In this document: positions 42,172-60,935 of the stretch, one piece after another
Layout of the letters: every line of letters begins with the position of its first letter
Position numbering within the stretch: the stretch's first letter is position 1
Source of the DNA: Francisella salimarina
Lineage (GTDB): Bacteria > Pseudomonadota > Gammaproteobacteria > Francisellales > Francisellaceae
Direction of reading: 5' to 3'
NCBI RefSeq assembly: GCF_007923265.1
Contig: NZ_VOJA01000001.1
Location: forward strand, 248,001-312,000
Length of the DNA: 64,000 nt
Notes under the pieces: model-generated
What the model saw: the letters and a program-made list of their open reading frames with translations, nothing else
Databases searched by the model: none
Told to the model about the DNA's origin: nothing
Made by a program: the position numbers and the translations under genes

Positions 42172-42606
42172 TTGAACAATAAAAGTATGAGCTTCACTGC
42201 CCGTTTAGTTCACACAATAGGCTTTGAATTTTTTGGAATAGTGATTTTCACCCCATTTGCCATGTTTGTCCTACACAAAGATATGTTTCATATCGCAGGA
42301 CTAGCTATCATAGTATCAATAATAGCCATGCTATGGAATCTTGTATATAACTATATTTTTGACATCGTCGAGAATAAAACAGGCGGGTGTCGCTCAAAAA
42401 GAGGAGTTATTATAAGAGTGTTGCATGCCATTCTCTTTGAAGCTGGTCTTTTAATTGTTACTATCCCTCTTGTTGCATATATGCTAGATATGGGGCTAAT
42501 AGAAGCAGTTATTGTTGATATTGGCTTTGTTATTTTTTATCTTGTATATGCTTTTGTGTATAATTATATTTTCGATAAGATTTACTTCGGTTTTATACAT
42601 AATTAG
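42172..42606 (+). CDS. PACE-family membrane protein (possible multidrug or polyamine exporter)
   Basis: A 144-residue membrane protein made of two repeats, each with two helices. The first has FTARLVHTIGFEFFGIVIFTPF and the second has RVLHAILFEAGLLIVTIPLVAY. Both share the R-x-x-H-x-x-x-F-E pattern of the PACE (AceI) family, and each repeat ends YNYIFD. PACE proteins export polyamines and biocides such as chlorhexidine. The start is a TTG at 42172 with GAGG 7 nt upstream; the ATG five codons later has no such site. The tRNA gene follows within 6 nt. Confidence 0.8.
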   Translation: MNNKSMSFTARLVHTIGFEFFGIVIFTPFAMFVLHKDMFHIAGLAIIVSIIAMLWNLVYNYIFDIVENKTGGCRSKRGVIIRVLHAILFEAGLLIVTIPLVAYMLDMGLIEAVIVDIGFVIFYLVYAFVYNYIFDKIYFGFIHN

Positions 42607-42611
42607 ATATA

Positions 42612-42687
42612 GCACCCATAGCTTAACTGGATAGAGCGTCGCCCTCCGGAGGCGAATGCGGGGGTTCGAGTCCCTCTGGGTGTGCCA
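42612..42687 (+). tRNA. tRNA-Arg(CCG)
   Basis: A standard cloverleaf. The acceptor stem pairs GCACCCA with TGGGTGT (one G-U). The anticodon stem TCGCC/GGCGA holds the loop CTCCGGA with anticodon CCG at 42646-42648, which reads CGG arginine codons. The T-arm has GGTTCGAGTCC. The encoded CCA tail is at 42685-42687. Confidence 0.95.
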
Positions 42688-42875
42688 AATCAGGACAACA
42701 ATTTGAGTTATACATTACACAATCCTACTTAAAACATATATTACTACTAAAATTTCAGCACAAATAATAATTACTACTCTTATAAAAACTTTTGAGATGG
42801 AAATAGTGGTAGCACCTAAGTAATAATCAAAAAATATTGAAAAAAAATGGGATATGAATTACAATTCACCGATAC

Positions 42876-42890
42876 TGATAATAATTATCA
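42876..42890 (+). promoter_or_regulatory. Fur box upstream of feoAB
   Basis: TGATAATAATTATCA is a perfect 7-1-7 inverted repeat, the core of the Fur operator. It ends 16 bp before the feoA ATG, so bound Fur would block the promoter or early transcription when iron is plentiful. Confidence 0.8.
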
Positions 42891-42906
42891 TTTATGGAAT
42901 AGGTAA

Positions 42907-43137
42907 ATGTCAAAATATAAGACTAATACTAAATATTTAATCAAAGGGTACCTCCAGAGCTGTCCAGTCGCCTATAAAAACAGACTTTTATCCTTAGGTT
43001 TATTACCTGGTAAAACTCTAGAAATAAAACGTAAAGCTATTTTTGGTGGTCCATGCCAAGTCAGTGTAAGAAATGCTGATATTTCCATACGTGTAAAAGA
43101 ACTAGACCTATTAGATCTAGAGGAGATCAAATCATGA
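42907..43137 (+). CDS. feoA: Ferrous iron transport accessory protein FeoA
   Basis: A 76-residue cytoplasmic SH3-like protein needed for FeoB-mediated Fe(II) uptake. It has the small-domain pattern YLQSCPVAYKNRLLSLGLLPGKTLEI and ends in VKELDLLDL. The ATG follows AGGT a few nt upstream. Its stop overlaps the feoB start by 4 nt (ATGA), so the two are coupled. A Fur box lies just before it. Confidence 0.9.
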   Translation: MSKYKTNTKYLIKGYLQSCPVAYKNRLLSLGLLPGKTLEIKRKAIFGGPCQVSVRNADISIRVKELDLLDLEEIKS

Positions 43138-45371: not shown

Positions 45372-45399
45372 AAATATCTCATCCTTCTCAGTATTTATC

Positions 45400-45429
45400 T
45401 TGTACATAAACTATGACTAAAATGTACAA
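45400..45429. promoter_or_regulatory. Spaced inverted repeat before the halogenase-like gene
   Basis: TTGTACAT (45400-45407) and ATGTACAA (45422-45429) are exact inverted copies 22 bp apart centre to centre, about two helical turns. Each half contains the palindrome TGTACA. It lies 65 bp before the chosen start codon of the halogenase-like gene, so an operator for a dimeric regulator is plausible. Confidence 0.5.
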
Positions 45430-45493
45430 TGAAAGTATCTAATAATAATCAATAGTGCTAAAATTCAGATGTAAATCTAAGTTTAAGGCTTGC

Positions 45494-46729
45494 ATGCTCA
45501 ATAATAATTTGAAGGCTACGGTTGCAATAATTGGCGCTGGTCCATCCGGCTCGGTTGCAGCAGCAATACTAGTCAAAAAAGGTTATGATGTAATTATCAT
45601 TGAAAGACAAATATTCCCAAGATTTTCAATAGGTGAAAGTCTCTTACCTCAATCAATGCAGTATTTTGAAGAAGCTGATATGCTTGATGTAATTAAACAA
45701 CAAGCAATATTTCAGCATAAAAATGGAGCTGCTTTTAATAATAATATTGACTCTATTTCTATAGATTTTAATCAAAAGTTCACCGCTGGTTATGGTGATA
45801 CTTTTCAGGTTAAACGAGGGATCTTCGACAAAGCTTTGGCTGATAAGGCTCAAGGTCTAGGTGCAAAAATATTTTATAATACTGAAGTTATCCATGTAGC
45901 TGAAGAGAGAGATAGTATCACTCTGACTGTCAGAAATCTTGAAACTCAAAAACAGTATAAATTAGAAGCTAATTTTGTACTTGACGCTAGTGGTTTTGGG
46001 AGAGTGCTACCAAAATTACTTAATCTTGAGAAACCTTCTAGCTTTCCAATGCGACAATCATATTTTTGTCATATAGAGGATAATATTGTTGCTGGAAGTT
46101 TTGATCGCGATAAAATTCTTATAAGCGTTCATCCAGAACATAGAGATATTTGGTACTGGCTAATACCTTTTGCTGATGGAACATCATCCATTGGAGTAGT
46201 TGCAAAGCCAGAGAACTTCATTGATAACAATACCAATATGCAGAATCTAGATTGCTTTATAAAGCAAATGCCATATTTAGCAAACTTAACATCTGCCTCA
46301 ATACTTAGATCTGATGTTCAAACTATCAAAGGTTACTCATCAAATGTTTCTAAACTTTATGGCGAAAGATTTGCATTGCTTGGTAATGCCGCTGAATTTT
46401 TAGACCCTGTATTTTCATCAGGTATAACCATTGCTGTTAAATCAGCATCCTTAGCAGCAAATGCTCTTGATAGACATCTAAGGGGTATAGATGTAGATTG
46501 GCAAAAAGAATTTGTTGATGAGTTATATATAGGTATAAATACTTTTAGAGAATTTGTTAGCGCTTGGTATGAAGGTAGCTTGCAGGATATAATATTTCAT
46601 AAAAATAGCACCAAAAACATAAAAGAACAAATCGTATCAATCTTAGCGGGATATGCTTGGGATAAAAATAACCCCTTTGTGAGAAATCCTAGACAAGGAA
46701 TTAAAGCATTATCAAGGTTATGCTGTTAA
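45494..46729 (+). CDS. Flavin-dependent halogenase-like monooxygenase
   Basis: A 411-residue FAD enzyme of the tryptophan-halogenase family. The FAD loop is GAGPSG at 14-19. Other marks of the phenolic/carrier-protein-bound halogenase group are IGESLLP at 46-52, Lys76 in QHKNGAAF (aligned by eye with the catalytic Lys79 of PrnA/RebH), WYWLIP at 220-225 (the WxWxIP motif) and FLDPVFSSG near 302-310. The start is the ATG at 45494, with AAGG 5 nt upstream; a GTG at 45455 has none. It would add chlorine or bromine to an aromatic ring if active. Related proteins in this group also act as plain oxidoreductases. It lies next to a polyene locus, convergent with a small secreted-protein gene. Confidence 0.75.
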   Translation: MLNNNLKATVAIIGAGPSGSVAAAILVKKGYDVIIIERQIFPRFSIGESLLPQSMQYFEEADMLDVIKQQAIFQHKNGAAFNNNIDSISIDFNQKFTAGYGDTFQVKRGIFDKALADKAQGLGAKIFYNTEVIHVAEERDSITLTVRNLETQKQYKLEANFVLDASGFGRVLPKLLNLEKPSSFPMRQSYFCHIEDNIVAGSFDRDKILISVHPEHRDIWYWLIPFADGTSSIGVVAKPENFIDNNTNMQNLDCFIKQMPYLANLTSASILRSDVQTIKGYSSNVSKLYGERFALLGNAAEFLDPVFSSGITIAVKSASLAANALDRHLRGIDVDWQKEFVDELYIGINTFREFVSAWYEGSLQDIIFHKNSTKNIKEQIVSILAGYAWDKNNPFVRNPRQGIKALSRLCC

Positions 46730-46733: not shown

Positions 46734-47171
46734 CTATTTGATAACAACTCCTTTTAATGCAACTCCAGACATTAAGAGACCCTCGCCACAAACATAAGTA
46801 TCTTTACTTGATGTAGGATTATTTTTCCAGTTAGATTCGATATCTGCAATACCTTTGCCACCGGCAGCTTGTGATTGCTCTTTTAGATCAATTAATGCTG
46901 AATAAAAAGCCCAATTACAAGACTTCTGATAATTTTTAAAGACACCATTAGTCCTTTTGCTAGTATATATTGTTCCTTCAGCTGAATAATCAAATGGCTT
47001 AGAATCTTTACCAAAATAAAACTTAAAATCGCCAAGTTTATTTTTGACTTTTTCAGGCATTACTTCCATAGCATTCTTGATACTCACATCATGAATATCA
47101 TCCGAAGCATAAACAGATAAAGGTAAAACAAAACAGCCTGCAGCAACCAATGAAAGTAACATCTTTTTCAT
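46734..47171 (-). CDS. Small secreted protein of unknown function
   Basis: A 145-residue exported protein with a signal peptide (about 1-22, ending VYAS). It has three or four cysteines and resembles short gammaproteobacterial secreted proteins with the pattern SCNWAFYSALIDLKEQSQAAGG followed by a Cys-Gly pair and a GVALKGVVIK end. I do not know a function. It lies between the halogenase-like gene and the first polyene operon, so it may serve that locus. A 3-nt gap separates its end from the halogenase-like gene end. Confidence 0.65.
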   Translation of the reverse strand: MKKMLLSLVAAGCFVLPLSVYASDDIHDVSIKNAMEVMPEKVKNKLGDFKFYFGKDSKPFDYSAEGTIYTSKRTNGVFKNYQKSCNWAFYSALIDLKEQSQAAGGKGIADIESNWKNNPTSSKDTYVCGEGLLMSGVALKGVVIK

Positions 47172-47247
47172 ATTATGTATCCTATAACTTTTCAGAAAAT
47201 TGTGTTAAATATCATATCAATTTTGTGACTAAAGTATAATCTTTATT

Positions 47248-48465
47248 CTAAAATTTTTTAAAAATCAAAGATGTATTAACCCCACCAAAAGCAAAGTTAT
47301 TAGTCATCACATACTCAGTCTCTATATTTTGTTTATCTACAAGGTAGTCTAAGCTAGCACACCTTGGATCTACATTTTGTAAATTTATATTTGGGATAAA
47401 TACACCTCTATTCATCATCTCTATAGTTAGCCATGCTTCAAGCGAGCCACTAGCACCTAATGTATGACCAAAATAGCCCTTTAATGAACTGATGCTAATA
47501 TCCCTAGCAAAAACCTCACGCGTGGCAATACTCTCGGCTATATCGCCAACCTCTGTTGATGTACCATGAGCATTGACATAACCTATCATATCTGGTGTTA
47601 TCTGTGCATCTTCTAAAGCAAGTTTGAGAGCAATCTGCATTTTTTCGGCTGTTGGCTGCGTAACATGCTCAGCATCACAGTTCGTACCATACCCAATAAC
47701 TTCTGCATAAATTTTTGCTCCACGCTGTTGAGCATGCTCTAATGACTCTAATATCAAAGTAGCACTTCCCTCTCCTATAACTAAGCCATCTCTATCTCTA
47801 TCAAAAGGTTTAGGTGCAAGACTTGGCGTATCATTCATCTGACTTGTCGCGAATAATGTGTCAAATATTGCAACCTGACTTACACAAAGCTCTTCTGCGC
47901 CACCAGCAACCATCACATCCTGCATACCATATTTAATAGCTTCATAAGCATATCCTATAGCTTGACTACTTGAGGTACATGCACTAGATGTCGGAATCAA
48001 TCTACCAGTCAACCCAAAAAACAAAGCTACATTAACTGCACAAGTATGACTCATACCCTTGATATAAGTTGTTGCATTAACATTGCCAATTTTTTTGTCA
48101 GTAAGAATCATCAAAAGATCAGCTAATGGTTGTGGACTGCCAGAGCATGATCCATAAGCAACACCTGTTCTACCACTAGTTAATATATCTGTCTTATCAA
48201 GTAAACCAGCATCCGCTAATGCTTGCGAGGTTGCTACGGTTGCTAACTTTGACACCATACCCATACCACGTATTTTTTTACGAGGATAATTTGGCATTTT
48301 AAAATCTGTTACAGGAGCAGCAAGCTTAGTGTTAAGACCTTGAATATCATCCCAAGGCATTCTCTTAGTTGCGACTTTTCCAGCTAATAGTGACTCAAAA
48401 ATAGTATCAGCATCACTACCAAGAGCTGTAACGCCTGACATACCAGTAACAACAACTCTATGCAT
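47248..48465 (-). CDS. Beta-ketoacyl-ACP synthase, ApeR-like (polyene locus)
   Basis: A 405-residue ketosynthase that condenses an acyl chain with malonyl-ACP. The Cys-His-His triad is complete: Cys163 in SSACTSSS, His300 in VNAHGTSTEVGD, and His334 in YFGHTLGASG. It is the fourth and last gene of a minus-strand operon. Its ATG overlaps the ketoreductase stop by one base (TAATG). In aryl polyene loci a second FabF-type ketosynthase with this position is named ApeR; the name is by comparison, not proof. It should not be confused with the housekeeping FabF, because it sits among polyene genes. Confidence 0.85.
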   Translation of the reverse strand: MHRVVVTGMSGVTALGSDADTIFESLLAGKVATKRMPWDDIQGLNTKLAAPVTDFKMPNYPRKKIRGMGMVSKLATVATSQALADAGLLDKTDILTSGRTGVAYGSCSGSPQPLADLLMILTDKKIGNVNATTYIKGMSHTCAVNVALFFGLTGRLIPTSSACTSSSQAIGYAYEAIKYGMQDVMVAGGAEELCVSQVAIFDTLFATSQMNDTPSLAPKPFDRDRDGLVIGEGSATLILESLEHAQQRGAKIYAEVIGYGTNCDAEHVTQPTAEKMQIALKLALEDAQITPDMIGYVNAHGTSTEVGDIAESIATREVFARDISISSLKGYFGHTLGASGSLEAWLTIEMMNRGVFIPNINLQNVDPRCASLDYLVDKQNIETEYVMTNNFAFGGVNTSLIFKKF

Positions 48466-49190
48466 TAAGCAAGTCCTCCATTAATAGAAATTACTTGTCT
48501 TGTTATATAAGCTGCAGCATCCGACATCAGATACTCTGCTAAGCTTGCTACCTCATCCACACTACCTGCCCTTTTCATTGGTATATGCTTAATGATCTCA
48601 TCATAATGCTCAATATCATCAGTCATTTCTGTATCTATCAAACCTGGTGCTATGCAATTAACTGTAATTTTTCTTTTCGCTAACTCTACAGCCAAAGCTT
48701 TTGTGGCTCCAATAATACCAGCTTTTGCAGCACTATAGTTGACCTGTCCTCTATTACCCACGATACCAGATACAGAAGCCATAGTAATAATCCTGCCACC
48801 TTTTCTAAGCTGTATCATTGGCATAATACAAGGCTTTAAAACATTATAAAAACCATCCAGATTAGTATCTATAACTCTTGACCAATCATCTTTTGTCATT
48901 GCTGGAAATGCAGTATCCCTACAAAGACCGGCATTATTAATCACTCCATAAAATGCACCATGATTTTCGATATACTCGCCAATAGCTTGTTCTGTCTGCT
49001 GATTATTAGAGATATCAAAACTTATAATATCTGCTTGAAAACCCTTATCAAGAATACTATCACGAACGTTTTCAGCACCAACTTTGTCCGTATTATAGTG
49101 TATAGTTATATGCCTATTTTCAGCCGCAAGTTTTAGTGCTATAGCCTTACCGATTCCTTTACTCGCACCTGTGACTAATATTCTTTTCAT
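48465..49190 (-). CDS. 3-oxoacyl-ACP reductase, ApeQ/FabG-like (polyene locus)
   Basis: A 241-residue SDR ketoreductase. It has TGASKGIGKA at 7-16, NNAGLCRD, and the catalytic set SVSGIVGNRGQVNYSAAKAG, and the C-terminal VISINGGLA that is typical of FabG. It reduces the new 3-keto group in each elongation cycle. It lies 3 nt downstream of the dehydratase gene and overlaps the next ketosynthase by 1 base. In aryl polyene loci the ketoreductase is ApeQ. Confidence 0.87.
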   Translation of the reverse strand: MKRILVTGASKGIGKAIALKLAAENRHITIHYNTDKVGAENVRDSILDKGFQADIISFDISNNQQTEQAIGEYIENHGAFYGVINNAGLCRDTAFPAMTKDDWSRVIDTNLDGFYNVLKPCIMPMIQLRKGGRIITMASVSGIVGNRGQVNYSAAKAGIIGATKALAVELAKRKITVNCIAPGLIDTEMTDDIEHYDEIIKHIPMKRAGSVDEVASLAEYLMSDAAAYITRQVISINGGLA

Positions 49191-49193
49191 ATT

Positions 49194-49661
49194 TTATATT
49201 TCTCTACTAATAACTTTTTTTACATCTCCAAAACTTTGTGGCTGATAGGCATTGATCGTAAGTGATGCAACTTCTTGTTGACCCAACAATACTTTGCAAC
49301 TAAATACCCCTGTCCCTTTATCAAGAATAATACATTCAGCAAATATATCTAAAACACTACCAGTTTTATATCTTTTAACATCTGTCTTGTAACCTCTCAC
49401 ACTGAGTAAAAATGCTACTGGAGGTTCATTGGTACTAGCGTCAGATGTAGCAAGCTTACTAGCTCTACCATAGGAAGCAGCCGTTTGAGCCATGATTTCA
49501 ACCGCTACCCAGTGTGGTATACCATCTAATTGCTTATCGAAGAATATATTGCCATCAGTCACAATGGTTCTACAGTGTACTGTATTGTCTTCAAAAGCGA
49601 TAAACTCATCAACGAGTCTCATAGGTAGTTCATGCGGTATCAAATCGCCAATATTATGCAT
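49194..49661 (-). CDS. Hotdog-fold dehydratase, ApeP/FabZ-like (polyene locus)
   Basis: A 155-residue hotdog protein resembling 3-hydroxyacyl-ACP dehydratases; it removes water to leave a conjugated double bond. The pattern LIPHELPMRLVDEFI opens it, and WVAVEIMAQTAASYG is the central helix. In aryl polyene synthesis ApeP works as a heterodimer with ApeI; the likely ApeI partner here is at 54993-55334. The ATG directly follows the TAG stop of the upstream ketosynthase (TAGATG). Confidence 0.8.
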   Translation of the reverse strand: MHNIGDLIPHELPMRLVDEFIAFEDNTVHCRTIVTDGNIFFDKQLDGIPHWVAVEIMAQTAASYGRASKLATSDASTNEPPVAFLLSVRGYKTDVKRYKTGSVLDIFAECIILDKGTGVFSCKVLLGQQEVASLTINAYQPQSFGDVKKVISREI

Positions 49662-50843
49662 CTATTTCTTTCCTATAATTACACTTACGTTATTACCGCC
49701 AAAAGCAAACGAGTTACTCATGAAATTTGGCTTGTGGTATCGAATATCACTAGTTATTATACCAATATCAGAAATAATATCCTTATCTGAATCGTATTGC
49801 ATTGGTAGTTTTTTGTTAGGATTGTAATTATCTGATAATAATAGCCAACACATCCCTACCTCTGTAGCTGCCGCTGCACCTAGAGTATGACCTGTCAATG
49901 ATTTAGTAGAGCTGCACGCAACAGGTGCTTTAAATATATCTTTTACTGCATTACTTTCCATATTATCATTCAGTATAGTTGCTGTACCATGCAAATTTAG
50001 ATAACCGATATCATCAGGAGCTAGATTTGCAGAGCTCAATGCCTGTATCATAGCTAATTTAGCACCTTCACCACTAGGATCTGGTGCTGTAATATGATAA
50101 CCATCTGATGATTCCCCAACACCTAAAAGTACTATTTCTGAGCAATCTCTAGACATAATAAATGCTGCAGCGCCTTCACCGATATTTATACCATCTCTTT
50201 GATTATGAAAAGGTAAACACAAGTTCTGAGATATCGCATCTAAACAATCAAAGCCATTTAATGTTAATTCACAAAGAGTATCGCAACCTACAACAATAAC
50301 TGCATCACACAAATTCTGTTTTAATAATCTAGCAGCTGAGGCAAATGCTTTACCACTTGATGAACAAGCTGTTGATATAGTATAAGCAATATTTTCAAGA
50401 TTATAATACTCCCTCAAAAATTCACTAAGACCTGCGGTTTCTTCTTGCTTGTAGCTAAATTCTTTGGGGAATTGACCTGATATAAACTTTTTAGTTAAAG
50501 CTCGTTCACCATTATCTATACCTGATGTACTAGTACCGCAAACCACAGCCACTCTATCAGCTCCATATTTATCTATAACTCGACTTATATCATGATTTAT
50601 TTGCATACAGGCATGAAGAGCCATTTGGTTATTACGACAATCAAATTCTTTTAATCGGTGAGGAATTTCTGGAAGTATATTATCATTTACTTGCCCTACC
50701 ATTGTCTTGCGACCCGACAATAGATTCTTATCAGTTACCAAGCCAGTTTGATTACTAAGCAATGATTGCAAAACAGCTTGTTTAGAATCACCTAAACAAT
50801 TGATTATACCTAGTGAATTCAGATAAATTTCATTGCCACTCAT
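49662..50843 (-). CDS. Beta-ketoacyl-ACP synthase, ApeO-like (polyene locus)
   Basis: A 393-residue ketosynthase, first gene of the minus-strand operon. The triad is intact: Cys160 in STACSSSGKA, His285 in NLHGTATILND, His319 in SLTGHTLGAAAATE. In aryl polyene systems ApeO pairs with the inactive ApeC as a chain-length-factor dimer; the ApeC-like protein is the first gene on the divergent operon 130 bp away. This placement supports the pairing. The name is by analogy. Confidence 0.85.
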   Translation of the reverse strand: MSGNEIYLNSLGIINCLGDSKQAVLQSLLSNQTGLVTDKNLLSGRKTMVGQVNDNILPEIPHRLKEFDCRNNQMALHACMQINHDISRVIDKYGADRVAVVCGTSTSGIDNGERALTKKFISGQFPKEFSYKQEETAGLSEFLREYYNLENIAYTISTACSSSGKAFASAARLLKQNLCDAVIVVGCDTLCELTLNGFDCLDAISQNLCLPFHNQRDGINIGEGAAAFIMSRDCSEIVLLGVGESSDGYHITAPDPSGEGAKLAMIQALSSANLAPDDIGYLNLHGTATILNDNMESNAVKDIFKAPVACSSTKSLTGHTLGAAAATEVGMCWLLLSDNYNPNKKLPMQYDSDKDIISDIGIITSDIRYHKPNFMSNSFAFGGNNVSVIIGKK

Positions 50844-50972: not shown

Positions 50973-51728
50973 ATGATAGATTCTAGTAAAGACAATAAAA
51001 TAGCATATTGGATGAGATTTTATATAGATTCGGTTTTAGCCATAGCTCAAGGAAAAAACGACATATCAAGTTTTAAAGATATATCATACCTTGAAATGAT
51101 AAAACAGGACGTCAACATCGATACTAGCCTCATAGCTGCCGCTATGAGAAGAAGATGTAGTAAATCTAGCAAAATCGCTCTTTCAGTATCCATACCTCAA
51201 CTCCATAAATATAAAATAGATGCCGTAGTATTTGGATCTCAACATGGTGAACTAGCAAATACATTATCTATATTTAAAGATATTTCTAATCAAGAAATCC
51301 TTTCACCAAACGCATTTTCTCAATCTGTGCATAACACTCCTTCTGGACTTCTATCAATCCAACAAAAACTAAAAATACCTTTTAACTCAATAGCTGCTGG
51401 TACCGAGACTTTTGAAATGGGTTTAATTGACGCTATCACACAGTTACAAGACTATGATAATGTTTTGTTTACTTGTTATGATGATAATGTGCCAGAAATC
51501 TTTGATAAACTCAATATCTCAGATAATCTTGCTTATGGAATTAGTTTTGTCATATCAAGAGAACCACTATCACAGTCAAGTATAGGCTTAAAATTAGAGA
51601 TTAATAACAACATAACATTATTACAAAAATTTAATCGACTCCCATCTGCAATTATTTTTGCAAACTGGTATGCTTGTAATGAACTTAATCCATTATTTTT
51701 GAAGAGTATATCTATAGAGAAGATGTAA
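50973..51728 (+). CDS. Chain-length-factor-like ketosynthase homologue, ApeC-like
   Basis: A 251-residue protein related to the N-terminal half of ketosynthases. The nucleophile Cys is gone: the expected T-A-C-S-S-G site reads IAAGTETFEMG, with Gly143 where Cys should be. That makes it a decarboxylase-dead partner of the chain-length-factor type. SPNAFSQSVHNTPSGLLSI is the usual family stretch before it. It would pair with the ApeO-like ketosynthase. It is first on the plus-strand polyene operon; no clear ribosome-binding site is visible. Confidence 0.8.
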   Translation: MIDSSKDNKIAYWMRFYIDSVLAIAQGKNDISSFKDISYLEMIKQDVNIDTSLIAAAMRRRCSKSSKIALSVSIPQLHKYKIDAVVFGSQHGELANTLSIFKDISNQEILSPNAFSQSVHNTPSGLLSIQQKLKIPFNSIAAGTETFEMGLIDAITQLQDYDNVLFTCYDDNVPEIFDKLNISDNLAYGISFVISREPLSQSSIGLKLEINNNITLLQKFNRLPSAIIFANWYACNELNPLFLKSISIEKM

Positions 51729-51730: not shown

Positions 51731-52507
51731 ATGTATAAATACTTAAATAGGTTTTATCGCAGAATTGCTACAGGAATATGTTTCTTTTTATTTAGCTTTT
51801 TTGGAGCTATATTAGGCTATATATACTTCCCTCTAGTTAGAATATTTATAAAAGATAAAAGTGCTCGCACAGTACATGCTCAACACACTATAAACATTGG
51901 TTTTAAGATTTTTATTGGAATTATTCATCATTTTAGAATTATTCGATTTGAGTTTGAAGGTATTGAAAAACTATATCAAGATAAAGGTTGTATTTTCATA
52001 GCTAATCATCCTACTTTAATCGACTATGTTGCAATAGTGTCTAGACTCAAGCTTTGCGATAATATTGTCAAACAAAGCTTATGGGAAAACCCATATTATA
52101 AGCATGTAATAGAAACAGCTGGATATATTCCAAATATCAATCCTGACCAAACATTCTCACGCTTAAATGAAATATTTGCAGAAGGTAGAAATTTGTTAAT
52201 GTTTCCAGAAGGTACCAGAACTAGTCCCAACCAGTTACCAAAACTAAAACGAGGTGCCGCGCAACTAGCAATTAGAACAAATGCTCCTATAAGAATGATA
52301 CATATTTCATGCTCTCCTGTTACTTTGACAAAAAATACCAAATGGTATAACATTGCCGAAACAACGCCGTTGTTTAGAGTAGTTGTTGGAGATAAGGTTA
52401 ATCCTCAAGATTTTATTGATGAGGCAGATGGGATACCATCTCTAGCTGCTCGTAGGCTAACTAAATTTTTACAGTATAATCTCTCTACTAAATTAGATTT
52501 TTTATAA
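51731..52507 (+). CDS. 1-acyl-glycerol-3-phosphate-type acyltransferase (polyene locus)
   Basis: A 258-residue membrane-bound PlsC-type acyltransferase. It has the catalytic IFIANHPTLIDYVAI (H-x4-D) and MFPEGTRTSPNQLPKLKRGAAQLA, the second conserved block. One N-terminal hydrophobic segment anchors it. In a polyene operon it probably joins the chain to a lipid head group; this is inference. It is 2 nt after the ApeC-like gene. Confidence 0.82.
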   Translation: MYKYLNRFYRRIATGICFFLFSFFGAILGYIYFPLVRIFIKDKSARTVHAQHTINIGFKIFIGIIHHFRIIRFEFEGIEKLYQDKGCIFIANHPTLIDYVAIVSRLKLCDNIVKQSLWENPYYKHVIETAGYIPNINPDQTFSRLNEIFAEGRNLLMFPEGTRTSPNQLPKLKRGAAQLAIRTNAPIRMIHISCSPVTLTKNTKWYNIAETTPLFRVVVGDKVNPQDFIDEADGIPSLAARRLTKFLQYNLSTKLDFL

Positions 52508-52525: not shown

Positions 52526-52774
52526 ATGCAACAAGAAATAAAAGAAATGATCATCGAGGTCTTAAATCTTGAAGATATTACAGCTGATGAAATAGATGCT
52601 GATGAAGCACTTTTTGGAGAGGGTTTAGGACTAGATTCAATAGATGCTTTAGAGATAGGGGTTGCGTTAAAAAAACGCTATAATATAAGTCTTGAAGTTG
52701 CTGATGAAGATGTCAAAAAACACTTTGAATCTGTGGCATCTTTGGCTAAATTTGTAGAAGAAAATAAATCTTAA
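52526..52774 (+). CDS. Acyl carrier protein, ApeE-like (polyene locus)
   Basis: An 82-residue acyl carrier protein. Ser38 in GLGLDSIDALEIG is the phosphopantetheine attachment site (D-S-I-D rather than the common D-S-L). It is strongly acidic and all helical. It is the first of two carriers in tandem, typical for aryl polyene loci, where one may hold the starter acid and the other the growing chain. Confidence 0.87.
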   Translation: MQQEIKEMIIEVLNLEDITADEIDADEALFGEGLGLDSIDALEIGVALKKRYNISLEVADEDVKKHFESVASLAKFVEENKS

Positions 52775-52784: not shown

Positions 52785-53039
52785 ATGAGCTTTTCTAAAG
52801 AACAAATTTTCGCACAATTACAGGATATTCTTAATAATCTTTTTGAAATAGATAAGGATGATGTCACTCTAGATTCAACACTATACGAAGATCTTGATTT
52901 AGATAGTATTGATGCTGTTGATTTAGTAGTACAACTGCAAAACTTCACAGGTCGCAAGTTTAAACCTGAGGAATTTAAATCTGTTCGTACTGTTGGGGAT
53001 GTTGTTGACACTATAATTGCAGCTCTAGCACAAGACTAA
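52785..53039 (+). CDS. Acyl carrier protein, ApeF-like (polyene locus)
   Basis: An 84-residue acyl carrier protein, second of the tandem pair, with Ser41 in LDLDSIDAVDLVV as the phosphopantetheine site. It lies 10 nt after the first carrier gene. The two share only the general carrier pattern, so they likely have different acyl partners. It is followed 11 nt later by a membrane-protein gene. Confidence 0.87.
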   Translation: MSFSKEQIFAQLQDILNNLFEIDKDDVTLDSTLYEDLDLDSIDAVDLVVQLQNFTGRKFKPEEFKSVRTVGDVVDTIIAALAQD

Positions 53040-53050: not shown

Positions 53051-53617
53051 ATGAAATCTCTACTTAAATTCTTTGTATTGATAATTATTATACTATATCC
53101 ATTTATAGTCTATATTGGCTTAAATTCACTCTCGATAAAGTATCTTGGCTTAATTGTCGCCTTAATATTTATACTAAGATTACTAATTTTAAAAAAAGAT
53201 CCTAGCATCACTTGGAAACTTATTACTATTGTGGGGATACTTCTTGCAGGTATAGCCATCATTGTAGATAATATCACCGTTATGCTACTATACCCTGTCT
53301 TTGTAAGTATTAGCCTCTTCTGTGTTTTTTGTTATTCATTATTCCAAGACAAAAGTCTGATTACCAAACTTGCAATTCGTATGAGCAGAGAGCCTCTACC
53401 AGACTATGCAATAAAATACACATGGTATGTAACATTAGCTTGGTGTGTGATTTTTGCTATAAATGCCAGTATTTCAACATACACTATTATATTAGGTTCG
53501 ATACAATTTTGGACACTTTATAACGGTTTTATCAGTTATATCCTTATAGGATTAATGATGCTTAGTGAGATTATAATTAGAATTGTTGTTAGGAGATATT
53601 TTGAAAAGCACACTTAA
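53051..53617 (+). CDS. COG4648-type membrane protein (polyene locus, ApeG-like)
   Basis: A 188-residue membrane protein with about five helices. It resembles the family found in aryl polyene loci, with RMSREPLPDYAIKYTWYVTLAWCVIFAINAS then an ending FISYILIG. The biochemical role is unknown; it may help present the product at the membrane. The next gene starts inside its last codons, with a strong AGGAG site at 53591-53595. Confidence 0.75.
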   Translation: MKSLLKFFVLIIIILYPFIVYIGLNSLSIKYLGLIVALIFILRLLILKKDPSITWKLITIVGILLAGIAIIVDNITVMLLYPVFVSISLFCVFCYSLFQDKSLITKLAIRMSREPLPDYAIKYTWYVTLAWCVIFAINASISTYTIILGSIQFWTLYNGFISYILIGLMMLSEIIIRIVVRRYFEKHT

Positions 53618-54914
53618 ATCAATACTAGAATTTTATGCACAAAATCCTTCTGAAATCATATTTATCAAAGATTCAAATAATATTATCGCAAAAGAGTTTT
53701 TAAATGATATAAAAACTTTAGCTAATCATCTTGATATCATTCTAAGCAATAGTTGCAAAGTTGCATTATCAGTTGATGATATGTACTTATTTTGTTGCAC
53801 ATGGATAGCATGTCAGTTTTTAGGTAAAACTACTATAATGATACCAAATGACAAACCTGGCACAATTGCCAAGCTTGCAAAACATTACGACTCTTTAATA
53901 ACTAATAATGATCTTGATTTATCAGCAAAAATCATCAATGAATATACATTAAAAGATTGTGAAACTATATTTTTCACATCTGGATCTACTGGTGAATATA
54001 AAAGCTATAGCAAAACCATAGACAATCTTGAACAAGAGTCTTTCGCGATCAACAGTGTCATACAAAGCTTTAATCTTAAGAATATCAATGTGCTTACAAC
54101 AGTATCACATCAGCACCTGTATGGCTTTAGCTGGGCTATAGTATGGCCACTGCTATACCAAAAAATCATTCACACAGAAAGGCTATTTGTACCCGAACTT
54201 ATCCACAAAAAGCTACTTCAAGATAATAATATTTTGATAACAACTCCTGTAATTATTTCTCACCTTGATGGTAGTATCAGTAGTCCTATCACTAACTCTT
54301 TGCTCATTTCATCAGCTAGTGCATTAAGTGCCGATATCGCGATTAAATTTCAAAATAGTTACAACATCCCTATTCTCGAAGCTTATGGTAGTAGTGAAAC
54401 TGGAGTTATTGCGTATAGACAACAGTTAATCGATAAACTATGGAAACCTTTTGATAATGTTTGTATTACTACAGAGTCTGATCAACTAGTTGTTAGATCT
54501 CCCTTTTTTAAGCAAGAAAAACAACTAATGGCAGATATCGTTACATTATACAACGATAAATTTGAGCTAAAAGGTAGGGTCGATAAGATTGTCAAAATTG
54601 CTGGTAATCGTTTATCAATATCACAAATGCAAAATATATTAATCGCTCATGACTTAATAAAAGACTGTGTATGTATCAAGCGTCAAAGCTATCGTGAATA
54701 TATAGCAGCAATAATATGTCTAAATCAAGATGGACAAGACTTATTACAAAATTTTGGTAAACAAAATTTAATTAAACAAATAAAGAGCTATCTATTAAAC
54801 TATTACTCAAATGTAGTTATACCTAAAAAATGGCGCTTTGTAACTGAAATACCAACCAACTCTCAAGGAAAAAGAACTCTAGAGCTATTAGTTGAATTAT
54901 TAGATGATAATTAA
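53601..54914 (+). CDS. AMP-dependent acyl ligase, ApeH-like (polyene locus)
   Basis: A 437-residue ANL-family enzyme that would activate a carboxylic acid as its adenylate and load it on a carrier protein. It has the P-loop FFTSGSTGEYKSYSK, EAYGSSETG and GRVDKIVKIAGNRL. I use the TTG at 53601, because AGGAG stands 5 nt upstream, rather than an earlier TTG at 53583. In aryl polyene systems ApeH activates the aromatic starter (4-hydroxybenzoate), but the pocket residues here do not tell me the substrate. It overlaps the preceding gene by 17 nt. Confidence 0.85.
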   Translation: MKSTLKSILEFYAQNPSEIIFIKDSNNIIAKEFLNDIKTLANHLDIILSNSCKVALSVDDMYLFCCTWIACQFLGKTTIMIPNDKPGTIAKLAKHYDSLITNNDLDLSAKIINEYTLKDCETIFFTSGSTGEYKSYSKTIDNLEQESFAINSVIQSFNLKNINVLTTVSHQHLYGFSWAIVWPLLYQKIIHTERLFVPELIHKKLLQDNNILITTPVIISHLDGSISSPITNSLLISSASALSADIAIKFQNSYNIPILEAYGSSETGVIAYRQQLIDKLWKPFDNVCITTESDQLVVRSPFFKQEKQLMADIVTLYNDKFELKGRVDKIVKIAGNRLSISQMQNILIAHDLIKDCVCIKRQSYREYIAAIICLNQDGQDLLQNFGKQNLIKQIKSYLLNYYSNVVIPKKWRFVTEIPTNSQGKRTLELLVELLDDN

Positions 54915-54992: not shown

Positions 54993-55334
54993 ATGAACAA
55001 ACATCTTAAGATAAATAATATACAAAATATTGATGATTGCTGTGTTTTAGTATCGGCGCAAGTACTCCACGAGTGCGATTTTTTTAAAGGTCATTTCCAA
55101 GAGCAGGCCATTTTACCGGGTATTGCTCAAGTTGATTTTGTTATAAATTTGGCAAGCCAGATATTCGGTATTAATAAACTCTCTTTTGGTAATATTCCAC
55201 AAGTAAAATTCAAAAAAGTTATATTACCTAATGATGATATAGAAATAAAAATCGCAAATAACAACAATACAATTACTTTTGAAATTTCTGTCAATAATCA
55301 AGTAGCATCTCAGGGTAAAATAAAATATGAGTAG
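54993..55334 (+). CDS. Hotdog-fold dehydratase, ApeI-like (polyene locus)
   Basis: A 113-residue hotdog protein. CDFFKGHFQEQAILPGIAQ holds the conserved H-F and P-G pair of the FabA/FabZ family. It probably forms the dehydratase with the ApeP-like protein encoded on the other strand. It starts 78 nt after the ligase. The only AAGGAG (about 54956) is some 30 nt from the ATG, and a tiny in-frame M-A-K-stop precedes it at 54978, so re-initiation is possible. Confidence 0.78.
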   Translation: MNKHLKINNIQNIDDCCVLVSAQVLHECDFFKGHFQEQAILPGIAQVDFVINLASQIFGINKLSFGNIPQVKFKKVILPNDDIEIKIANNNNTITFEISVNNQVASQGKIKYE

Positions 55335-56076
55335 TAGTGATTGTAATTTATGTATTGTAGTACCAATCTATAACCATGGAAAGCAACTACGTAACACCAT
55401 CAAAAATATCGCCAGATATGACTTACCTATCATACTTATAAATGATGGTAGCCAAGATAACACTAAACAAATTATGAGAGAAGTTGCTGATGAATTTAAT
55501 AATATTGTTTTGACAGAATCACTTGATAAAAATCAAGGTAAAGGTGTTGCTGTAAGTTATGGTGCCAATTTAGCTTTTAAAATGGGTTATACACATATGC
55601 TTCAAATAGATGCTGATGGTCAGCATGATTCGACCGATATCCCTAAATTTATACAAGCAATGCAGCAAAACCCTCAGGCACTAATATCTGGTATGCCTAT
55701 CTATGATGATAGTATTCCCAAAAGTAGACTTCATGGTAGAAAAATTACAAATTTTTGGGTAGCAATAGAAACTCTGTCGTTTGATCTCAAAGAATCAATG
55801 TGTGGTTTTCGTATCTATCCACTAGAGGCTTATACAAAGCTTATGCAGAAAAAAACTTTCTCAGTGAAGATGGATTTCGATATAGATGTAATCGTGAGAA
55901 TGTACTGGCTAGGTCTTCCTATAGTCTATATAAATACCAAAGTAATTTACCCTCAAGATGGTTACTCCAATTTTAGAATGTTTCGAGATAATGTCAGGAT
56001 ATCTTTGACTCATACAAAATTAGTTACTGGTATGATTATTAGATTACCATTACTATTATGGAGAAAAATCAGGTGA
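55327..56076 (+). CDS. Family 2 glycosyltransferase (polyene locus)
   Basis: A 249-residue GT-A fold transferase. It has CIVVPIYNHGKQLRNTI and the DxD-like QIDADGQHD at about 94-101, with a C-terminal amphipathic or membrane-near end. It would add a sugar to the lipid-polyene or its head group. It overlaps the dehydratase gene by 8 nt. In enterobacterial aryl polyene clusters, glycosyltransferase and acyltransferase are fused in ApeJ (from memory); here they are separate. Confidence 0.83.
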   Translation: MSSSDCNLCIVVPIYNHGKQLRNTIKNIARYDLPIILINDGSQDNTKQIMREVADEFNNIVLTESLDKNQGKGVAVSYGANLAFKMGYTHMLQIDADGQHDSTDIPKFIQAMQQNPQALISGMPIYDDSIPKSRLHGRKITNFWVAIETLSFDLKESMCGFRIYPLEAYTKLMQKKTFSVKMDFDIDVIVRMYWLGLPIVYINTKVIYPQDGYSNFRMFRDNVRISLTHTKLVTGMIIRLPLLLWRKIR

Positions 56077-56996
56077 AACATTGGACTAAGATAAAAGAAG
56101 CCGGTGGTATATTCGGGCTTAGAACTACTTTTATTTTATTTCGTTTGTTAGGTCGTAGACTCACCTACTCAATCATGTCAGTAGTTATGATCTATTATTT
56201 TTTATTGTACAAAAGTGCACGTAAATATTCTTTTAAATATATTAAACACCTCGATAAAAATATTAAAACTTCAAAATTATGGTTTTATAGTTTCAGACAT
56301 TTTTTAGCATTTGGTGAAATGGTTATAGATAAAATAGCTGTTTGGAGTAATAAGATCACTATAGATAATGTAGACTTCTCAGTACAAGATCGCAAAATCA
56401 TGAACCAAGCTATCAAATCACAAAAAGGTGGTGTTATTTTTACTGCTCATCTTGGTAATCTTGATGTTGCAAGATCATTGGCAGACTTTGATAATAGTAT
56501 GAAGATAAATGCTCTAGTATTTAGCAAGCAAGCTCCTACATTTAACAAACTTTTGACAAAGATTAATCCTAAATACTCGATCAATATGATATGTATACAA
56601 GATGTTACTCCAGATCTAGCAATTGAGTTATATGAGCGTGTTGCTAATGGTGAATTTATCGTTATACCTGCAGATAGAACTTCTGTAACTAAACCAGAGA
56701 GAAATCTTAGATTATCATTTTTAGATGATATGGCATTTTTCCCGCAAGGTGCATTTATATTAGCAAGCATTCTAAAATGCCCTACATACTTTATGCTATG
56801 TCCAAAAAAAGATCGTAATAACTTTGATTTTATTTTCAAAGAGTTTGATCAAAATAGCATTATTTTAAATAGAAAAACAAAACAACAAGATTTAGAAAAG
56901 TATGCACAAAAATACGCACAAATGCTTGAATCATATTGTAAAAAATATCCAAAACAATGGTTTAATTTTTTTGATTTTTGGCATCAAGGAGAATAA
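56073..56996 (+). CDS. LpxL-like acyltransferase (polyene locus)
   Basis: A 307-residue lysophospholipid acyltransferase-type protein, with the H-x4-D motif in IFTAHLGNLDVARSL. One N-terminal hydrophobic segment is near 20-45. I use the GTG at 56073, which forms a GTGA overlap with the stop of the glycosyltransferase and has GGAG 9 nt upstream. An in-frame ATG at 56058 has no clear site. Its product could transfer the polyene acyl group to the lipid. It corresponds to the second half of ApeJ by position. Confidence 0.8.
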   Translation: MKHWTKIKEAGGIFGLRTTFILFRLLGRRLTYSIMSVVMIYYFLLYKSARKYSFKYIKHLDKNIKTSKLWFYSFRHFLAFGEMVIDKIAVWSNKITIDNVDFSVQDRKIMNQAIKSQKGGVIFTAHLGNLDVARSLADFDNSMKINALVFSKQAPTFNKLLTKINPKYSINMICIQDVTPDLAIELYERVANGEFIVIPADRTSVTKPERNLRLSFLDDMAFFPQGAFILASILKCPTYFMLCPKKDRNNFDFIFKEFDQNSIILNRKTKQQDLEKYAQKYAQMLESYCKKYPKQWFNFFDFWHQGE

Positions 56997-57000: not shown

Positions 57001-57429
57001 ATGCTTAAAGATAGTTTATTCACACATGTTTACAAAATGGCTATCCCATTTTTTGATGTTGATATGCTCGAAATTGTTTGGCATGGTAATTATATCAAGT
57101 ACTTTGAAATGGCTAGATGTAGTATGCTCAAAGAAATTGGCTATGATTATATAGCTATGAAGAAAGATGGTTTCGCTTGGCCTATAGTTGATATAAAAGC
57201 CAAATTTATTAAATCTGCAAGATTTGGACAAGATATTGATATTTATTGCGATCTAATAGAGTTCGAGAACAGATTAAAAATAAACTATACTATTTTAGAT
57301 AGCTTAACTAAAATAAAGTTATGTCAAGGTTATACTACTCAGCTTGCTGTTGATATTAACAAAAAAGAAACTTGTTTCGTAACACCTCAGCAATGGCAAC
57401 AAAAAATAAAAGAGATTATTAGAAGATGA
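57001..57429 (+). CDS. 4HBT-type thioesterase, ApeK-like (polyene locus)
   Basis: A 142-residue hotdog thioesterase. The pattern FFDVDMLEIVWHGNYIKYFE matches the 4-hydroxybenzoyl-CoA thioesterase family, and Asp21 aligns by eye with the catalytic Asp17 of that enzyme. It may edit misloaded carriers or release the polyene. It follows the acyltransferase after 4 nt with a GGAG site, and its stop overlaps the LolA-like gene (ATGA). Confidence 0.85.
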   Translation: MLKDSLFTHVYKMAIPFFDVDMLEIVWHGNYIKYFEMARCSMLKEIGYDYIAMKKDGFAWPIVDIKAKFIKSARFGQDIDIYCDLIEFENRLKINYTILDSLTKIKLCQGYTTQLAVDINKKETCFVTPQQWQQKIKEIIRR

Positions 57430-58010
57430 AGAGACTATTTACTTTTATTAGCATTTTTTTAACTATTGTGGCTCCTTTGTATGCTTCAGACCTTACAAAT
57501 AATTCAGACTTCCAAGCAGTTGAAAAGCAATTAACCAAAGATACTAATATCTCGGGTAAATTTATACAAATCCGACAAATTGCAGGTTTAAACTCAAGTT
57601 TAAAATCTTCAGGAACATTTAAACTAACCGATGATGGATCTCTGCTATGGCAACAGCAACAACCAATCAAAACCACAATGCAAATGTCTAAAAATAAGCT
57701 TACACAAACTATTATGGATAATCCTCCTACGGTTCTAACACGCGAAGACCAACCTGTAGTGTTCACATTCACTAGTGTTTTTATGTCTGTATTTAAAGGT
57801 GATACAAAAACCATATCAGAATTTTTTAATATTAATTTTGAGGGTAATACTCAAAACTGGACTATCACCCTCACACCGAAATCTAGCCCTCTTAATAAAG
57901 CTATAAAAGAGATAACTCTAAAAGGTAATAGATATATTACAAATATTGACGTCGCTGATACCCAAGATAATATAATCAAAATACAACTTTTTGATATTAC
58001 AACAAACTAA
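57426..58010 (+). CDS. LolA-like outer-membrane carrier, ApeL-like (polyene locus)
   Basis: A 194-residue exported protein with a signal peptide (about 1-22, ending LYAS). The beta-barrel-like pattern GKFIQIRQIAGLNSSLKSSGTF followed by WQQQQPIKTTMQMS resembles LolA/LolB-type lipid carriers. In this operon it probably shuttles the polyene lipid across the periplasm rather than lipoproteins. It starts in the stop of the thioesterase gene. Confidence 0.78.
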   Translation: MKRLFTFISIFLTIVAPLYASDLTNNSDFQAVEKQLTKDTNISGKFIQIRQIAGLNSSLKSSGTFKLTDDGSLLWQQQQPIKTTMQMSKNKLTQTIMDNPPTVLTREDQPVVFTFTSVFMSVFKGDTKTISEFFNINFEGNTQNWTITLTPKSSPLNKAIKEITLKGNRYITNIDVADTQDNIIKIQLFDITTN

Positions 58011-58015: not shown

Positions 58016-60358
58016 ATGATTAATAAATATCTTATCCGTCTTATTATTTGGAGTGTCATTGTTCTAAGTAGCATAACCCTATTTATAGCCATCATTACAA
58101 AAGGACTAAACTTAAATACAAACATTCTATCTTTGTTACCAAACCAAGAGACCTCGCCTGAACTTACCTCAGCATCAAATAAGTTTTCTGACCGTATAAG
58201 TAATGATGTTGTATTTTTAATAAGTTCTAAAGATCAAACTAAAGCTACAAATGCTGCAGCAAAGTTTAGCCATTTACTAGAACAAAGTAATAACTTCACA
58301 ACGGTAAATACTGGAATAAACCAAGACCAGCAATTATCTTGGGCAAAATTTTATTTCCCATACAGACTACAATTACTTAACGATAAAGACCAACAACTAT
58401 TAGTTGATAAAAACTACGAAAGACTATACCAAAATGCTCTAGCAAATATATATAACCCAACAGGAGTGGTTAATCGTAACTTACTTAATAATGATCCTTT
58501 CTTTACATATCAAAACTTTCTTTTAAACTTACCTAAACCAAGCTCCAACCTTAAGCTTAGAAATGGCTTTCTAGTAGCCGAAAAAAACAATACTTATTAT
58601 GTTCTTATTAAAGCCGAAATTAAAGGACAAAGCTTTTCATTAACTACTCAAACTGAAATTATCAAAAGCATTAATAATGCTATCAAACAGATTAAATCAA
58701 ATCATATTAGTGTTCTAAAAACTGGAATGCTCTTTTATGCAAATGCTGGAGCCGAAGATGCTCATCATGAGATAAATACTATTGGTATTGGCTCTATGAT
58801 AGGCGTCTTGATTTTGATAATTCTAACATTTAGATCAATTATTCCACTTTTTTTTACACTATTTTCAATACTTTGTGGATTTATTGCTGCGTTTGTTGTT
58901 ACACACTATATATTTGGTAGTGTCTTCTTATTTACGCTAGTTTTCGGTGCAAGTTTGATTGGTATATCTGTCGACTATGCTTTCTTTTACTATTCTGAAA
59001 AGCTTTTAGCTGATGCTAATTGGACTCCAAAAACAGGACTAAATCGTATTTCCAAAGGCATAACATTAGGACTTTTAAATGTTATTATAGCTTTTTTAGT
59101 TATAGCAATTGCACCTTTTCCTGGACTACATCAACTAGCAGTTTTTGGTATTATTGGCTTAGCTGTGTCATATCTAACAGTGATATGCTTTTTCCCATAT
59201 ATTATCAATATCAAATCAAAAAGCCATAAGAGTATTCCTCTATTAAGGCTTACGGATAAATATCTAAATCTATGGAAAAATATTAGTACAAAAAAAATTA
59301 TTCTTATCTTACTAGCTCTAGTGATAATAATTATTGCAGGAATATATAAAATAAAGCCAAATGATGATATTCATATATTACAATCAACTCCTAAAGAGCT
59401 CAAGGATGAAGAACAACAGCTTAAAAACATAATTGGCAGTGATATAGGTCTCAGCTATATTATCGTATTAGCTAAAAATGATAATACCCTTCTGTCAAAA
59501 GCGAATCATGTAACAAGCATTATTCGTAGTAACTTTGCTAATATTAAAAATCCACTAATTAGCATAAGTGACTATGTACCAGGCTTAGAGCAGCAGCAAC
59601 AAAACTATAATCTTATACAAAACTTTATTAATACCAAATATCCACAAGAGTACCTTAAACAAATAGGTTTCTCAGGGGCTCAACAAGTAAAAGTTATAGA
59701 TGAAATTAAAAACACAAAATTTAAGCCTCTGGAACTATCTGCATGGTTAGATAAACCTGTTTCAGCACAGATGAGATTTTTGTGGTTAGGAGACCAGCCA
59801 AATGATTATAAAGCTGTGGCAATAGCACTTTCAAAAGATATTGATATTGCTAAACTACAAAATTTGCTTAGCTCTATCGATAATGTTTATATTGTTGATA
59901 AGGTAAGTCAGATAAGTGATATTTTTGGTCATTATCGTAATATGATTTCTTACATAATGGCGATTGTATTTGTCTTACTATGGTTAGGATTAACTATTAG
60001 ATATTCTTTTAGAAAATCTATAGTTTATATTGTAGTACCATTATTATCATGCTTCACATCTATAGCACTCCTTGGATTACTCAATATTCCTCTGACATTA
60101 TTTAGCATCCTTGCGATAATACTTGTTTTAGGAATAAGTATGGATTATGTTTTATTCTTAGCTGAGAGTCATAATAGATTCAGTAGTACTATGCTAGCAT
60201 TAGCACTATCAGCTATTACTACTATACTATCATTTGGGCTTTTAGCATTAAGTAATACTCCAGCTATTGAATATTTTGGTCTAACTGTACTAATAGGTAT
60301 TTCGGTAGCATTTTTATTAGCTCCTATAGCAATTAAGATACAAGGTTATGAAAAGTAA
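58016..60358 (+). CDS. MMPL/RND-family exporter, ApeM-like (polyene locus)
   Basis: A 780-residue inner-membrane transporter with two halves of about six helices and a large periplasmic loop after the first helix of each half. The helices TLVFGASLIGISVDYAFFYYSE and AIILVLGISMDYVLFLAES carry the proton-relay Asp typical of RND/MMPL proteins. MMPL exporters move lipids; in this operon the likely cargo is the finished polyene lipid. The next gene overlaps it by 11 nt. Confidence 0.87.
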   Translation: MINKYLIRLIIWSVIVLSSITLFIAIITKGLNLNTNILSLLPNQETSPELTSASNKFSDRISNDVVFLISSKDQTKATNAAAKFSHLLEQSNNFTTVNTGINQDQQLSWAKFYFPYRLQLLNDKDQQLLVDKNYERLYQNALANIYNPTGVVNRNLLNNDPFFTYQNFLLNLPKPSSNLKLRNGFLVAEKNNTYYVLIKAEIKGQSFSLTTQTEIIKSINNAIKQIKSNHISVLKTGMLFYANAGAEDAHHEINTIGIGSMIGVLILIILTFRSIIPLFFTLFSILCGFIAAFVVTHYIFGSVFLFTLVFGASLIGISVDYAFFYYSEKLLADANWTPKTGLNRISKGITLGLLNVIIAFLVIAIAPFPGLHQLAVFGIIGLAVSYLTVICFFPYIINIKSKSHKSIPLLRLTDKYLNLWKNISTKKIILILLALVIIIIAGIYKIKPNDDIHILQSTPKELKDEEQQLKNIIGSDIGLSYIIVLAKNDNTLLSKANHVTSIIRSNFANIKNPLISISDYVPGLEQQQQNYNLIQNFINTKYPQEYLKQIGFSGAQQVKVIDEIKNTKFKPLELSAWLDKPVSAQMRFLWLGDQPNDYKAVAIALSKDIDIAKLQNLLSSIDNVYIVDKVSQISDIFGHYRNMISYIMAIVFVLLWLGLTIRYSFRKSIVYIVVPLLSCFTSIALLGLLNIPLTLFSILAIILVLGISMDYVLFLAESHNRFSSTMLALALSAITTILSFGLLALSNTPAIEYFGLTVLIGISVAFLLAPIAIKIQGYEK

Positions 60359-60935
60359 AACTCTTTCAACTATTTTTATACTTATCTTTTTAAGCAGTTG
60401 CTCATTGTTGCAAACAAAACAGCAAATCGATGTAAAGGTAGCTATAACACCAGATACAACTGTAACACTACCCCAGCCACAACAACTAGGTATTGATAAA
60501 ACAATATCGCAAATAGTCTCTGCTACTTATTATGATAAAGATGGCAAACAAAAAAATCTAACAACAAATATGATTATTGAAGCCAACTCAAAACATATCA
60601 TAATGGTAGCATTATCAGCCTGGGGTGGATCTTTATTTAAGCTTGACTATAATGGTAAAGATATCCAAAGTAGTAGCCTGCCAATGCCAAACCAAAATAT
60701 TGGTGTTAAACAAAGCCTCACAGAGTTTATTATAAGCCAGGCAACTGTCAATATTGTCAAAGAGATGTTTGCTAATACAAATATTAGTGTATCAGAAAAA
60801 GCAAATAAAAGGATTTTAACTTCTAAAGACGGCAAAAAAATTCTAACAATAAAATACAGTGATAATAATAAAAAAATAACTATTCACAACTATCACTACA
60901 ACTATATTATTAACATAACAGATTTAGATCAATAA
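60348..60935 (+). CDS. DUF3261-type lipoprotein (polyene locus)
   Basis: A 195-residue lipoprotein. The signal ends with the lipobox LSSC, with Cys17 as the lipid-modified residue. The rest is mainly beta strands and contains the pattern typical of DUF3261 proteins, which accompany aryl polyene loci. It may sit in the outer membrane and receive or anchor the product. It is the last gene of the plus-strand operon. Confidence 0.78.
   Translation: MKSKTLSTIFILIFLSSCSLLQTKQQIDVKVAITPDTTVTLPQPQQLGIDKTISQIVSATYYDKDGKQKNLTTNMIIEANSKHIIMVALSAWGGSLFKLDYNGKDIQSSSLPMPNQNIGVKQSLTEFIISQATVNIVKEMFANTNISVSEKANKRILTSKDGKKILTIKYSDNNKKITIHNYHYNYIINITDLDQ

Follow-up and report, generated by a model that had tools for sequence, protein, structure and literature searches.

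HAL1, a halogenase-like flavoprotein encoded beside the aryl polyene cluster of Francisella

The HAL1 gene and the adjoining aryl polyene cluster

The window, i.e., the whole stretch of 64,000 nucleotides that was analysed, is part of a 1.98-Mb Francisella genome, in agreement with the intracellular pathogen lineage put forward in the initial annotation. The nearest named relative, F. philomiragia ATCC 25015, shows 95% protein identity in the window. We found that positions 46734–60935 hold a complete aryl polyene (APE) set, composed of an ApeO/ApeC KS-CLF pair, a KR, two DHs, two ACPs, a ligase and transport genes (Table 1); our literature search retrieved no paper on Francisella aryl polyenes. 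The gene under study, designated here HAL1, adjoins this cluster, so that its initial placement beside a polyene locus holds. It is located on the + strand, 122 bp downstream of feoB, and is convergent with the − strand APE genes. The HAL1 ORF extends from an ATG at 45494 to a stop at 46729. A longer version starting from a GTG at 45455 is possible, but the ATG is preferred because the relatives of HAL1 begin aligning at about residue 1–9 and an AAGG lies just 5' of this codon. Comparison with close relatives indicates that HAL1 is under purifying selection (omega 0.08–0.22).

Table 1. Coordinates of HAL1, its motifs and the APE genes in the window.
Feature	Position	Strand	Evidence
HAL1, FAD-dependent halogenase-like protein, 411 aa	45494..46729	+	ORF, profile search, PDB search, alignment, Foldseek
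GxGxxG FAD-binding motif (G14-A-G16-P-S-G19) in HAL1	45533..45550	+	sequence and alignment
Lys76 codon in HAL1, the residue matching the catalytic lysine position in flavin-dependent halogenases	45719..45721	+	alignments
WxWxIP motif (W220-P225, WYWLIP) in HAL1	46151..46168	+	alignments
FxDPxFSSG (F302-G310, FLDPVFSSG), group-B halogenase halide/FAD-side loop, in HAL1	46397..46423	+	alignments
145-aa secreted-type protein, conserved at APE cluster end	46734..47171	−	homologues in other clusters
ApeR-type beta-ketoacyl-ACP synthase	47248..48465	−	
ApeQ-type ketoreductase (FabG2)	48465..49190	−	
ApeP-type dehydratase	49194..49661	−	PF22817
ApeO-type ketosynthase	49662..50843	−	
ApeC-type chain-length factor	50973..51728	+	
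ApeD-type acyltransferase	51731..52507	+	
Acyl carrier protein 1	52526..52774	+	
Acyl carrier protein 2	52785..53039	+	
ApeG-like membrane protein	53051..53617	+	position between ACP and ligase
ApeH-type AMP-forming ligase (4-coumarate-CoA-ligase-like)	53583..54914	+	
ApeI-type dehydratase	54993..55334	+	PF22818
Glycosyltransferase (55327–56076) and LpxL-type acyltransferase (56058–56996), jointly ApeJ-like	55327..56996	+	
ApeK-type thioesterase (57001–57429) and ApeL/LolA-like protein (57426–58010)	57001..58010	+	
ApeM-type MMPL exporter (58016–60358) and ApeN/DUF3261 (60348–60935)	58016..60935	+	

The genes of the PKS core, of transport and of attachment have counterparts in the E. coli APE cluster (apeA-apeR, CFT073). 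The latter encodes the methyltransferase ApeB, which is thought to methylate the aryl head group, and lacks any gene of the halogenase type (PMC8253772 Table 1; strain A19 checked here), while the Francisella cluster possesses HAL1 and no ApeB match. With a single tblastn query, ApeB gave no match in any HAL1 locus.

Two minor features of the cluster should be mentioned. Many APE clusters end with a homologue of the 145-aa protein, annotated as 'excinuclease' in Acinetobacter and Pseudoalteromonas. The protein has no match in Pfam or NCBIfam and is a putative, uncharacterised APE accessory protein. In turn, the true start of apeC is probably at about codon 14 (MRFYIDSV). Internal stops in relatives were considered as a sign of apeC decay, which we rejected, as in one relative (G007) they precede this likely later start codon.

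Motifs, family and fold of HAL1

Lys76, the counterpart of the catalytic lysine of halogenases (PrnA K79 / PltA position), WxWxIP (220–225) and FxDPxFSSG (302–310) lie exactly where the initial annotation put them. Across 20 homologues, Lys76, W220-Y-W222-L-I224-P225 and F302-L-D304-P305-V-F307-S308-S309-G310 are invariant except at the 'x' positions. Profile searches matched HAL1 with the Pfam families Trp_halogenase (E 1e-21) and FAD_binding_3, and with the NCBIfam CmlS (151 bits) and GG-reductase (128 bits) models, both under their cut-offs. The top PDB match is 3NIX (E 4e-100), followed by PltA, ChlB4, CmlS, Mpy16 and CndH, the PDB halogenases matching at E about 1e-35. Judged by these sequence scores, the likeness to halogenases is far above chance. 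The AlphaFold2 model of HAL1 (pLDDT 89.4, pTM 0.90) led to the same proteins: in the Foldseek search, 3NIX ranked first (TM 0.93, 1.8 Å), and PltA, ChlB4, Mpy16, RadH, FasV, Bmp2, CmlS and CndH came next, ahead of other flavoproteins. Thus, motifs, fold and relatives agree on a halogenase-like enzyme, as initially annotated.

3NIX, a structural genomics entry from Cytophaga hutchinsonii deposited as 'flavoprotein/dehydrogenase', is 40% identical to HAL1, shares the Lys/WxWxIP/FLDPxFSSG motifs and belongs to the same clade, though its host, unlike that of HAL1, is a member of Bacteroidota. Cytophaga is linked to flexirubins. We found in the literature no functional report on 3NIX and no paper naming it together with halogenase. 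The group-B halogenases PltA, ChlB4, Mpy16, CmlS and CndH have in common with HAL1 the fold, GxGxxG, the position of the catalytic lysine, WxWxIP and FxDPxFSSG (FSQG in CmlS). Yet, their identity to HAL1 in structural alignments is only about 24–26%, they form a separate clade, and they act in pyrrole or chloramphenicol pathways, whereas the context of HAL1 is an APE type II PKS; HAL1 also lacks the PltA-type insert after the lysine.

The motifs were compared with those of related proteins of other activities. All three are retained in 34/34 HAL1 proteins, 12/12 members of a second halogenase-like family described below (HAL2) and six PDB relatives, with the above exception of CmlS. Lys76 aligns also with the lysine of the distant PF04820 Trp-halogenase-type proteins, which possess the lysine and WxWxIP, their loop reading EPLEST or EPLEAT. 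None of the three occurs in the 14 GG-reductase relatives that were usable, which read YxWxFP or YxWxF and have GEG/AEG/GAG as the loop, or in four QhpG hydroxylases, where the lysine is absent and the other two sites read WAWMA[RM] and SGNG; three mis-extracted or truncated controls (GG_L155, GG_L169 and QHPG_L224) were left out of the comparison. QhpG is an important control, as it shares the fold of halogenases but hydroxylates Trp (PMC7876137). The catalytic lysine is required for halogenation, and WxWxIP has been proposed to disfavour or prevent hydroxylation (review PMC10696468). The identification of HAL1 as a generic flavoprotein or GG reductase (TIGR02032, 128 bits against a cut-off of 158.8) was rejected because the GG-reductase relatives lack all three motifs.

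A profile search of the source genome revealed no PF01613 flavin reductase, so the usual FADH2-supplying partner appears to be missing. The genome encodes one 250-aa PF00970-type protein that could take this role. HAL1 is a candidate halogenase of an ordinary enzyme class.

Association of HAL1 with APE genes across genomes

The suggestion that HAL1 belongs to the polyene pathway gained support from other genomes. We found HAL1 within an APE cluster in 17/17 named non-Francisella loci, where it is usually positioned between the MMPL/apeM exporter and apeO. The homologues of A. baumannii and Pseudoalteromonas, annotated as 'NAD(P)/FAD-dependent oxidoreductase' or 'tryptophan 7-halogenase', are likewise cluster members. 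Among 17 Francisella genomes, HAL1 occurs solely in APE-bearing ones, namely in 6/8 with apeC and 0/9 without it (p 0.002). In a class survey of 369 genomes, apeO was present in 16/17 HAL1 genomes vs. 83/369 overall (Fisher p 2e-10), and the sole HAL1 genome without apeO is 55% complete. In one Francisella relative (G016, L053), APE genes flank HAL1 on both sides, and feoB gave no match next to it.

In seven other Francisellaceae loci (L055, L057, L059, L060, L063, L065 and L067), HAL1 is solitary and lies apart from APE genes. Hence, the physical linkage of HAL1 with APE genes is not universal, and the APE genes are scattered in Francisellaceae.

The DNA identity to F. philomiragia ATCC 25015 varies along the window. 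It amounts to 76–95%, mostly under 91%, at 39000–45500 (groEL-feoB), to 95–98% upstream of this region and to 94–99% from HAL1 onward. The feoB/HAL1 border is a change point of DNA divergence at which HAL1 resembles the APE block, and this pattern suggests that 39000–45500 is a recombined segment ending at that border.

As for lesions among relatives, the only stop that we counted as real is an in-frame TGA at HAL1 codon 389 in a same-genus genome of 1.86 Mb (G006, L049 10001–11233), where the APE genes are open. The loss of the tailoring step alone is possible there.

Two clades of halogenase-like proteins in APE clusters

The class survey showed that APE clusters hold two distinct clades of halogenase-like proteins, HAL1 (with 3NIX) and HAL2, which are about 29% identical to each other. 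HAL2 is APE-linked in 24/25 genomes and resembles HAL1 in being encoded in aryl polyene clusters and in its motifs. The two differ in their gene neighbors: TAL (tyrosine ammonia-lyase) accompanies HAL1 in 22/40 loci and XanB2 in 0/40, whereas a XanB2-type chorismatase occurs in 14/25 HAL2 loci and TAL in none. In addition, ApeR is present in HAL1 clusters and absent from HAL2 clusters. No surveyed genome encodes both proteins (P 0.002 under the assumption that they are independent among APE genomes).

In our tree, the HAL2 clade (support 100/98) joins PltA/CmlS/CndH (99/97), and HAL1 with 3NIX (98/94) falls on the other side. When Trp halogenases are included, the tree does not fix the order among HAL1, HAL2 and the characterised groups. 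Relative to GG reductases, HAL1 falls within the flavin-dependent halogenase assemblage, yet the HAL1-3NIX branch is separate from the assayed enzymes. The characterised group-B halogenases of the tree fall on the HAL2 side, so that we found no assayed, biochemically characterised member of the HAL1 clade, 3NIX included.

The initial annotation had drawn an analogy with xanthomonadins, which did not survive this comparison: the xanthomonadin/arcuflavin-type halogenase is the one of the other clade, encoded beside XanB2. In the Azoarcus arcuflavin cluster, the halogenase gene arcA (azo3921) neighbors arcB/XanB2, and the cluster has one KS-CLF pair (PMC3949708); we assigned ArcA to HAL2 by this cluster architecture, and because the architecture is of the HAL2 type, xanthomonadin is the wrong comparison for HAL1. 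Arcuflavin itself is a non-brominated aryl heptaene despite the annotated halogenase gene (PMC3949708), which means that carrying a gene of this kind is no proof of a halogenated product. In turn, xanthomonadins are brominated, and the non-brominated Lysobacter lacks the halogenase gene (PMC3691225).

Proposed role of HAL1 in APE biosynthesis

We propose, with a probability of roughly 60%, that HAL1 is a halogenase-fold, flavin-dependent tailoring enzyme of the APE pathway that halogenates the 4-hydroxyphenyl head. A cellular reductase would supply FADH2, which with O2 would give C4a-hydroperoxyflavin; halide bound at the FSSG loop would then be oxidised to HOX, and this would travel behind the WxWxIP wall to Lys76 for halogenation of the activated 4-hydroxyphenyl head. 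This reaction would most likely take place ortho to OH, on the ring taken to be the target of ApeB methylation in E. coli, and the substrate may be either the ACP-bound starter or the polyene. Halogenation by HAL1, the halide used, the carbon and the timing are all what we infer. The family, the fold, the intact motifs, the strong association with APE-bearing genomes and the lack of an ApeB match in HAL1 loci speak for the proposal; against it count the separate HAL1-3NIX branch, the non-brominated arcuflavin, the lack of a PF01613 match in the source genome and the premature stop in G006. A para-hydroxyphenyl head is expected because HAL1 loci carry TAL and never XanB2, and the source genome has UbiC (chorismate lyase); the APE ligase of the window is 4-coumarate-ligase-like. 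As the halogenase-like HAL1 belongs to a pigment gene set, the yellow membrane pigment may carry chlorine or bromine. More tentatively, and with the odds slightly against it, HAL1 may represent a clade of APE halogenases replacing ApeB-type ring methylation, so that the pigments of Francisella, Acinetobacter, Pseudoalteromonas and myxobacteria would be halogenated on the 4-hydroxyphenyl.

A different flavin reaction on the APE, such as ring hydroxylation, polyene redox or quality-control oxidation, with the motifs kept as an inherited scaffold, is a less likely, though not negligible, reading. It is consistent with the separate position of the HAL1 clade and its want of an assayed member, with QhpG, which hydroxylates using the same fold (PMC7876137), with the deposition of 3NIX as 'flavoprotein/dehydrogenase' and with the non-brominated arcuflavin (PMC3949708). 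However, the known non-halogenating relatives lack Lys, WxWxIP and SSG, which are invariant in 34/34 HAL1 proteins, and WxWxIP is the very motif proposed to prevent hydroxylation (PMC10696468). That HAL1 is silent or degenerating in this Francisella lineage, though a halogenase by descent, seems highly improbable: the TGA in G006 and two APE-bearing Francisella genomes devoid of HAL1 would fit such a scenario, but the gene of the window is intact, retains all motifs and evolves at the low omega given above.

We consider it just as implausible that HAL1 is a direct counterpart of the xanthomonadin brominase, making a brominated xanthomonadin-like pigment. Halogenase-like genes do occur in polyene clusters in both cases, and in Lysobacter the lack of the gene coincides with the lack of bromine (PMC3691225). 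Nonetheless, the XanB2-linked halogenases form the separate, well-supported HAL2 clade, the XanB2 and TAL counts are reversed between the two types of loci, both genes never meet in one surveyed genome, and ApeR is present in HAL1 clusters. On the grounds of the tree and linked genes, orthology with the xanthomonadin brominase is largely refuted, and we rejected it. Equally slim are the chances of HAL1 being a feoB-linked oxidoreductase unrelated to the polyene and merely adjoining the APE cluster. Its strand, its 122-bp distance from feoB, its convergence with the APE genes and the seven detached Francisellaceae loci speak for it. Against it stand the 17/17 outside loci, the G016 arrangement, the distribution among APE-bearing and APE-lacking Francisella genomes (6/8 vs. 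0/9, p 0.002) and the shift of DNA divergence at the feoB/HAL1 border; the gene context in outside genomes led us to reject HAL1 as a feoB-operon gene.

If HAL1 indeed acts as a halogenase, organohalogens would account for a large subset of APEs that has clinical relevance, among them the pigments of Acinetobacter and Francisella, and the E. coli-type APE structures do not cover such compounds. The split between TAL-linked HAL1 and XanB2-linked HAL2 offers a simple predictor at the genome level, open to testing by mass spectrometry.

Distant homologues of HAL1

Neisseria gonorrhoeae NZ_CP119140.1 (L218 6001–7141) has a homologue of HAL1 (45%) that is broken into two reading frames. The search for APE genes within 6 kb of it found none, and it is probably a relic. 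Another homologue (40%) is carried by the Aureispira anguillae plasmid pAUEa (L215 3882–12074), near genes for an MMPL/acyltransferase/methyltransferase fusion, a CrtD/isomerase-like protein and an AMP-ligase; from these neighbors, the locus is possibly a flexirubin-like cluster on a plasmid.
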